NCBI GenBank assembly: GCA_948144175.1
Contig: CANXME010002486.1
Location: forward strand, 4,836,001 to 4,900,000
DNA: 64,000 bases
Reading direction: 5' to 3'
Source: Closterium sp. NIES-65
Taxonomy: Eukaryota > Streptophyta > Zygnematophyceae > Desmidiales > Closteriaceae
The stretch's first letter is position 1. Every line of letters starts with the position of its first letter. A program made the translations under genes and the position numbers. Under the pieces are notes generated by a model. The model had not been told where the DNA came from and made no database searches. It saw only the letters and a program-made list of their open reading frames with translations. This document shows, one piece after another, positions 27,724 through 49,828 of the stretch.

Positions 27724-27738
27724 TGGTATCAGAGCGGG
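27724..27738 (+). promoter_or_regulatory. Element 3 primer-binding site
   Basis: TGGTATCAGAGCGGG starts at the base after the LTR; the first 12 bases match the plant initiator-Met tRNA 3' end. Reverse transcription starts here. Confidence 0.9.
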
Positions 27739-49091: not shown

Positions 49092-49343
49092 TGTGAGAGT
49101 AAGTCAACGTTCGACATATTTCTCATTTCTATATCTTTACTCTATCTTATTCTCCTTATTTTCCTCTTTCATTTGCACTTTGTTTCACCTCAACCGGACT
49201 ACTATTCTATTTTCTAGAGCTTTCCTATTATTTCAATTAGTCTGAATTTCCGGCACCGACATTTACATTATACGGCACCGACAGCACCGACGGTGGTGTA
49301 CAAGGCGTAATCTTGCCATAATCCCATGTGCCAATGGGCTTGC

Positions 49344-49678
49344 TGTCAGAGGGTCCACTGGTGATCCCCGATTGATCCCACAGGATCGTTGGCCTGGGGG
49401 GTTATGGGCGCACTGACCCGCTACTTAACAAGCCCTTTTATCCCAATGGTTAGGGGTTGGGATTCTGACATGGTATCAGAGCAAAGGTCTCGGGTTCGAA
49501 TCCAGGTGTATGCACTTCGGGCATCCCAGTGCTGGGGGGGTGTCAGAGGTCAACTGGTGATTCCCGATTGATCATAGGGAAGGGTTACAGGCACGTTGGC
49601 CTGGGGGGTTATGGGCGCACTGACCCGCTACTTAACAAGCCCTTTTATCCCAATGGTCTAGTGGTTGGGATTCTGACA
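49344..49678 (+). mobile_element. TRIM: 335-bp miniature LTR retrotransposon
   Basis: LTRs 49344-49470 (127 bp) and 49541-49678 (138 bp), both TGTCAGAGG...GATTCTGACA, enclose a 70-bp core. The core begins with the initiator-Met primer site TGGTATCAGAGC (49471-49482) and ends with the purine tract GCTGGGGGGG (49531-49540). A perfect duplication CTTGC flanks it (49339-49343 and 49679-49683). It encodes no protein and must use another element's enzymes. The LTR end plus core contains tRNA-like A- and B-box sequences. Confidence 0.92.
49447..49503 (+). promoter_or_regulatory. tRNA-like Pol III A/B-box region in the TRIM
   Basis: A-box-like sequence near 49447 (in the other LTR TGGTCTAGTGG, close to consensus), a perfect 5-bp stem TCTGA/TCAGA with a 7-base loop (49464-49480), and an exact B box GGTTCGAATCC (49493-49503). 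Spacing is that of a tRNA. Function is inferred only. Confidence 0.5.
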
Positions 49679-49828
49679 CTTGCATGCTTGTGATTATCTA
49701 TTATAGAAGAGCGCGTTCCCGAAGGTTCGGATTATCGGTTGTTTCGATGTATTTGTGAGTATAAATACTCCTTGTACTCACCTTTAGTGCAACATTATCG
49801 AGTGGAATTTCGATCCTGTGACACCTGA

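Follow-up and report, generated by a model that had tools for sequence, protein, structure and literature searches.

A candidate Pol III promoter split across the LTR/primer-site border in a TRIM family of Closterium

In this study, we showed that positions 49344-49678 of the window (the whole stretch of Closterium sp. NIES-65 DNA that was analysed, 64,000 nucleotides) hold a complete 335-bp TRIM with two LTRs, a primer site (PBS), a polypurine tract (PPT) and a target-site duplication (TSD), and that a tRNA-like module of this TRIM is clearly non-random at the level of its family. The sequence makes it fairly probable that the TRIM is driven by Pol III, with the A box in U5, the B box behind the primer site and the PBS between them. 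Pol III-driven TRIMs have been published before (Cassandra, Helenus, 'TRIMp3'), and the split of the predicted promoter over the LTR border is what differs here.

Results

The TRIM lies between two copies of CTTGC (49339-49343 and 49679-49683; all features are given on the plus strand). Its 5' LTR (49344-49470, 127 bp, TGTCAGA...TCTGACA) and 3' LTR (49541-49678, 138 bp) were aligned with 119 identities, 7 mismatches and 13 gap positions. The 70-bp core between them (49471-49540) begins with the PBS TGGTATCAGAGC (49471-49482), 12 nt complementary to the 3' end plus CCA of the host initiator tRNA-Met, and ends with a G-run as polypurine tract (49534-49540). The LTR alignment thus bore out the complete element described in the original prediction, which had been made from the sequence alone; short LTRs, PBS, PPT, TSD and a total well under 1 kb are the features of a TRIM. 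When an empty site was sought, no further copies of the two flanks were found within the 64-kb window. Long Copia-type RVT_2 reading frames (at least four, in both orientations) and repeat-rich coding stretches were also observed in the window (1-64000).

The U5 end of the 5' LTR forms a hairpin, ATCCCAA/TTGGGAT (49440-49463), whose loop is TGGTCTAGTGG in the family and the damaged A box TGGTTAGGGG (49447-49456) in the window copy, where the A-box consensus TGGTCTAGTGG of LTR2 (49654-49664, intact) has been degraded in LTR1. Over the LTR-PBS border, at the position of an anticodon arm, lies a 5-bp stem with a 7-nt loop (49464-49480, stem perfect), followed by a T-arm-like segment TCGGG TTCGAAT CCAGG (49490-49506), whose one mispair in the window copy is absent from, for example, copies L091 and L197. 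This segment includes an exact B box GGTTCGAATCC (49493-49503). The predicted A-box-like LTR end and exact B box behind the PBS were both confirmed in this way. TTTT occurs in the window copy only twice, at the equivalent place in each LTR: at 49436-49439, 8-11 nt 5' of the A box, in the predicted R region, and at 49643-49646, the predicted Pol III terminator. It was present at this place in 40/40 LTR1 and 39/40 LTR2 sequences of the family.

The tRNA resemblance of the window copy is real and modestly unlikely by chance, and alone it is weak evidence. The plus strand of the 335 bp was shuffled 20,000 times with its dinucleotides preserved: 0.47% of the shuffled sequences contained an exact B box, and 0.13% combined one with an A box, allowing a single mismatch at most, at a distance of 30-60 nt on its 5' side. 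The native A box counted in this test is another register that starts at 49439. ARAGORN called no tRNA in the window copy. The Rfam tRNA model gave nothing at the gathering score in this copy and nothing at E<=10 over 49300-49720. Restricted to 49430-49520, as had been proposed beforehand, the model did list a match (11.1 bits, E 7.2), but this is below the cut-off of 29, and two unrelated Rfam families reached 11.1 and 10.7 bits on the same stretch. The predicted fold of the window copy was no better than that of shuffled sequence (z -0.57).

The host assembly (874 Mb) was searched for further copies. With 40 of 817 candidates scored, at least 40 copies, the window copy included, covered at least 333 of the 335 positions at 91-100% identity, and one short piece was found in addition. 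Perfect 5-bp TSDs flanked 32/39 fetched copies; four pairs among the 39 had common flanks, and each pair is probably one insertion. Exact pattern searches of the host genome returned 2,124 occurrences of the PBS followed after 0-20 nt by GGTTCGAATCC, 1,098 of the PBS followed after 0-20 nt by GGTTCGATTCC, 2,705 of the LTR-end/primer junction and 5,379 of the 32-nt U5 end. Each of the four patterns had no occurrence when reversed as a control. The family is large, its copies numbering in the thousands. The module search of the viral and prokaryotic collections gave nothing. Tandem TRIM units about 235 bp apart were also seen (L081/L082; G000:C43:1848380-1849074), similar to Cassandra arrays. 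As a separate observation on this assembly (G000), several rbcL-type frames on both strands were present on each of contigs C40, C75, C97, C162, C824, C1848 and C2174, probably reflecting unresolved plastid assembly or large plastid insertions. One rbcL examined in the assembly was of green-plant type, with 9chz_A as its best solved chain.

Among the near-full-length copies (window included), the A-box consensus was kept in 36/40 LTR1 and 40/40 LTR2, in agreement with the claim that the second A box is the better kept. The family form TGGTCTAGTGG occurred in 32/40 LTR1, and the damaged first A box of the window copy is an exception. At 100 listed LTR/PBS junctions sampled without regard to the B box, GGTTCGAATCC was present at 54; 40 of the other 46 were fetched, and of these 21 fit GGTTCRANNCC (16 with GGTTCGATTCC and 5 with GGTTCAAATCC), 18 had a B box altered at one or two places and 1 had no such segment. 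GGTTCGAATCC and GGTTCGATTCC differ solely at the free (N) position of the B-box consensus, and this single fixed difference proves little. The split layout, with the A box in the LTR and the B box behind the PBS, was common to the copies read.

Two subfamilies with distinct U3 regions and a largely distinct core were compared using 52 aligned elements (69 of 100 loci were parsed as full elements and 54 were classed). LTR1 values were left out because this set includes rows with a non-TRIM 5' LTR. Between the subfamilies, LTR2 identity was 0.968 in U5, 0.957 in the TTTT stretch, and 0.819 and 0.874 in U3. The T arm reached 0.965, a value inflated because the loci were found through the B box; the stretch directly 3' of it, which holds a class-specific insertion, had 0.174, and the rest of the core 0.575. 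Copies lacking the boxes, or similarity confined to the PBS, had been named beforehand as counting against the module. What was found is a B box in 36/40 near-full-length copies (window included) and the U5 identity given above. Since the A box, U5 and B box are kept across copies and subfamilies, conservation extends past the primer site. The copies share ancestry, so conservation at the copy level is weak evidence of selection.

The U5 hairpin was examined in 118 parsed regions out of 140, of which 26 were distinct. Pairing was kept in 94.5% of the cells of these 26 (P 0.008), and both sides had changed in 5 cells, where shuffling gave 1.6 on average (P 0.002); the U5 sequences are related, and the compensatory change is therefore moderate support. 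The hairpin was part of the predicted minimum-energy fold in 4/5 other natural copies. The junction stem belonged to the minimum-energy fold of the window copy, but to that of only 1/5 other natural copies. The stem claimed for the junction is indeed perfect from 49464 onward; it is inseparable, however, from the LTR terminal repeat TGTCAGA/TCTGACA and the fixed primer site. The expectation that boxes and stem are kept better than the rest therefore holds for the A box, the U5 hairpin and the B box, but not separably for the junction stem.

The tRNA model at E<=10 listed 1/20 loci (18.5 bits) in one set and 7/10 loci (15.6-16.4 bits, some alignments spanning the full model) in another. All scores listed were 11.1-18.5 bits, below the cut-off of 29, and on the opposite strand the Rfam family Plastid-ycf2 reached 15.7-18.4 bits over this region. 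ARAGORN called no tRNA in the 39 copies. On these ARAGORN and Rfam results, reading the module as a whole tRNA or a tRNA gene was rejected.

Similarity to host tRNA genes was examined with 30 genes of four kinds (Gly, Val, Gln and initiator-Met). The U5 of L091 matched host tRNA-Gly(GCC) at 15/16 positions, and the post-PBS segment of L197 matched host tRNA-Val(CAC) at 20/22; the two mismatches are the partners of one T-stem pair with their places exchanged. Among the four host kinds, U5 was closest to Gly and the post-PBS part closest to Val. The predicted tRNA likeness thus stands in the intact copies L091 and L197, but not at the level of the tRNA-model scores. Shuffle comparisons used 11 tRNAs (two from the host and nine others); the Gln sequence among the nine scored best for U5 and is only 83% like the host's Gln, and ARAGORN gave no clean call for their elongator Met. 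None of 1,000 shuffles equalled the best tRNA score of the L091 U5 or of the post-PBS pieces of L091, L197 and the window copy. Less typical U5s fit tRNAs weakly, with best-match P values of 0.041 (L126) and 0.033 (window copy). In a separate observation, 10/11 host tRNA-Gly(GCC) genes read (L219-L223, L238-L242) were 6-8 nt longer than L218; in 4 of the first 5, ARAGORN predicted an intron of 6-8 nt within the anticodon region.

These data bear on two further readings of the module. That the resemblance arose by chance, the TRIM having no tRNA ancestry and its primer site being an ordinary one, would suit the weakly tRNA-like window copy and the P value of its U5 alone against the tRNA set. 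The family data disfavour this and make it extremely unlikely: the intact copies match host tRNAs at 15/16 and 20/22 positions, no shuffle of 1,000 was as good for the L091 U5 or for the post-PBS parts of L091 and L197, and the tRNA-like stretch is the best-conserved part between the subfamilies. The second reading takes GGTTCGAATCC as an extended primer site that pairs with the T arm of initiator tRNA-Met and is not a B box. Since TTCGAA is palindromic, the complement of a T loop looks like a B box, and a gapped resemblance to the complement of the initiator T arm was found; but pairing past the 12-nt PBS stayed at shuffle level (P 0.25-0.32, three sequences), forward similarity to host tRNA-Val scored 17-18, and the best tRNA score for the post-PBS pieces was beyond all 1,000 shuffles. 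We consider this reading disfavoured and very unlikely.

Hybrid elements were found among 100 listed PBS plus B box loci, of which 84 had the TRIM U5 and 16 another LTR, a hybrid LTR or another flank. At 9 of these 16, the first LTR was 127-133 bp long and began with TGTC (151 bp in L096), and by eye these nine resemble the window sequence 5' of the primer site at 27724, a stretch followed by a Copia reading frame. Three of the 16, probably two events, consisted of a Copia-type 5' LTR, the TRIM core and the TRIM 3' LTR with perfect TSDs (GTATC in L104 and L158, CACAG in L156). The other 13/16 showed no matching perfect TSD for such a hybrid (L096, for example, GGCAC vs GCTGC). In L083, L101 and L173, a Copia-type 5' LTR came first, then the TRIM core and LTR, and then a second primer site, which had a different leader. 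The hybrids are most simply read as products of a joint reverse transcription that jumped at the primer site common to both elements. Those with perfect TSDs make local Copia elements a likely partner of the TRIM.

The 16 loci without the TRIM U5 also mean that copying of the core is possible when a foreign LTR precedes it. This would suit a relic derived from a tRNA or SINE and kept for an RNA-level job, such as primer annealing, Copia particle packaging or strand transfer, with Pol II transcribing from U3. The U5 hairpin with its compensatory change, predicted in 4/5 natural copies, points the same way, and in the PBS loop CATGGTA the bases pairing with the CCA end of the tRNA would be left exposed. 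Such a relic leaves unexplained, however, why the A- and B-box consensus are both kept at tRNA spacing. The whole-module fold was not robust in the window copy and five natural copies, and no TATA[AT], AATAAA or ATTAAA lies inside the window element (the sole match within 100 nt of either end is TATAA at 49760, in the right flank). We therefore regard the RNA-level relic as rather unlikely.

Discussion

Under the preferred reading of a Pol III-driven TRIM, U5 and the first ~25 nt behind the PBS would be the two halves of a tRNA-type internal promoter. Tentatively, with slightly less than even confidence, we propose that this promoter spans the LTR/primer-site border with the PBS in place of the anticodon arm, and that only full elements possess it complete, at their 5' end. 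As the B box is located outside the LTR, 3' LTRs and solo LTRs carry half a promoter, and these halves would be silent. The single TTTT of the LTR would serve as the border on both the start side and the stop side, leaving an R of about 3-13 nt.

From this layout we infer a possible replication cycle. Pol III would start 10-20 nt upstream of the A box, at about 49427-49437, read the core and the U3 of LTR2, and stop at the only other TTTT, at 49643-49646. The RNA would be ~217 nt long with the same 3-13 nt at both ends as a minimal R. Initiator tRNA-Met would prime this RNA, and the enzymes of a local Copia element may copy and integrate it.

Several observations bear on these start and stop sites. 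Of the 30 host tRNA genes read, 29 had a T-run behind them, and the first such run was exactly four Ts in 24. Among the 52 aligned elements, 48 had no TTTT between the A box and the LTR2 terminator and 4 had an extra one; the LTR2 TTTT was missing in 3. The absence of an internal TTTT is consistent with a Pol III unit but is expected from composition in a short GC-rich stretch. The TTTT beside the predicted start would be among the first ~13 nt transcribed, where it could end the RNA prematurely. CAA is a plant start motif; it was dropped as support for the start site because only 10/30 host tRNA genes have CAA within 20 nt upstream. In L084, which is flanked by a perfect TAGCT duplication, the LTRs consist of the TRIM U3 and a different U5 with the switch at ACAAA just 5' of the CAAGCCCTTTT stretch, and this single case fits an R at the U3/U5 switch.

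tRNA-derived SINEs are likewise short non-coding retroelements with an A/B box promoter of the tRNA type, but unlike this TRIM they are without LTRs, PBS and 5-bp integrase-type TSDs and are moved by LINE enzymes. Helenus elements are TRIMs with tRNA-derived sequence in their LTRs and a presumed Pol III promoter, and 'TRIMp3' was proposed as a name for Pol III-driven TRIMs (Kojima 2024, PMC10886601). The plant case of Helenus is one family in Selaginella, with a 120-bp LTR and an 85-bp core (PMC10886601). The Closterium element is likewise a short TRIM of similar size with PBS/PPT, a 5-bp TSD as in plant Helenus and tRNA-derived A and B boxes. In Helenus the tRNA-like part is inside the LTR, whereas here the A-box half is in the LTR and the B-box half in the single-copy core. 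Because boxes A and B are not both inside the LTR, the element is not filed as Helenus, although it would work like one. The conserved tRNA- or 5S-type promoter sequence that characterizes TRIMp3 is present. A tRNA-type Pol III module as a parallel to Cassandra, the idea of the original prediction, gains from the conserved modules, but a tRNA-type Pol III TRIM was already in print as Helenus/TRIMp3 (PMC10886601).

Cassandra is a plant TRIM with a 5S rRNA promoter inside each LTR and with tandem arrays (PMC7215508, PMC10853983). On that description it shares with the present element the plant TRIM structure, the PBS TGGTATCAGAGC, a Pol III promoter (predicted here) and the tandem arrays, and differs in that its promoter is of the 5S rRNA type within each LTR vs the tRNA-type split here. 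Cassandra box A and box C had best matches of 2 and 3 mismatches anywhere in the element on either strand. SMART is a plant LTR element of 292 bp, presumed to be mobilised in trans, whose LTR holds a TATA motif and which has PBS/PPT, but not the LTR, in common with its proposed partner (PMC3281118). The main text of that report contains none of the terms tRNA, Pol III and polymerase. SMART is defined by homology to FRetro129, and it is set beside this TRIM by description alone. PBS, tRNA and Pol III do not occur in the available main text of Gao et al. 2016 (PMC4717578). A description of the split promoter layout was not found in searches of open-licence PMC literature.

Non-coding LTR elements need a route to transcription, and the solution ascribed to Cassandra and Helenus is a small-RNA promoter carried by each of their LTRs. 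If the promoter here is indeed divided over the LTR border, this would be another layout, one that comes through reverse-transcription strand transfers intact and leaves 3' and solo LTRs silent; it would also escape screens of LTR sequences alone. The partner is unknown for many TRIMs, and here the natural Copia/TRIM hybrids with target duplications point to a likely one.
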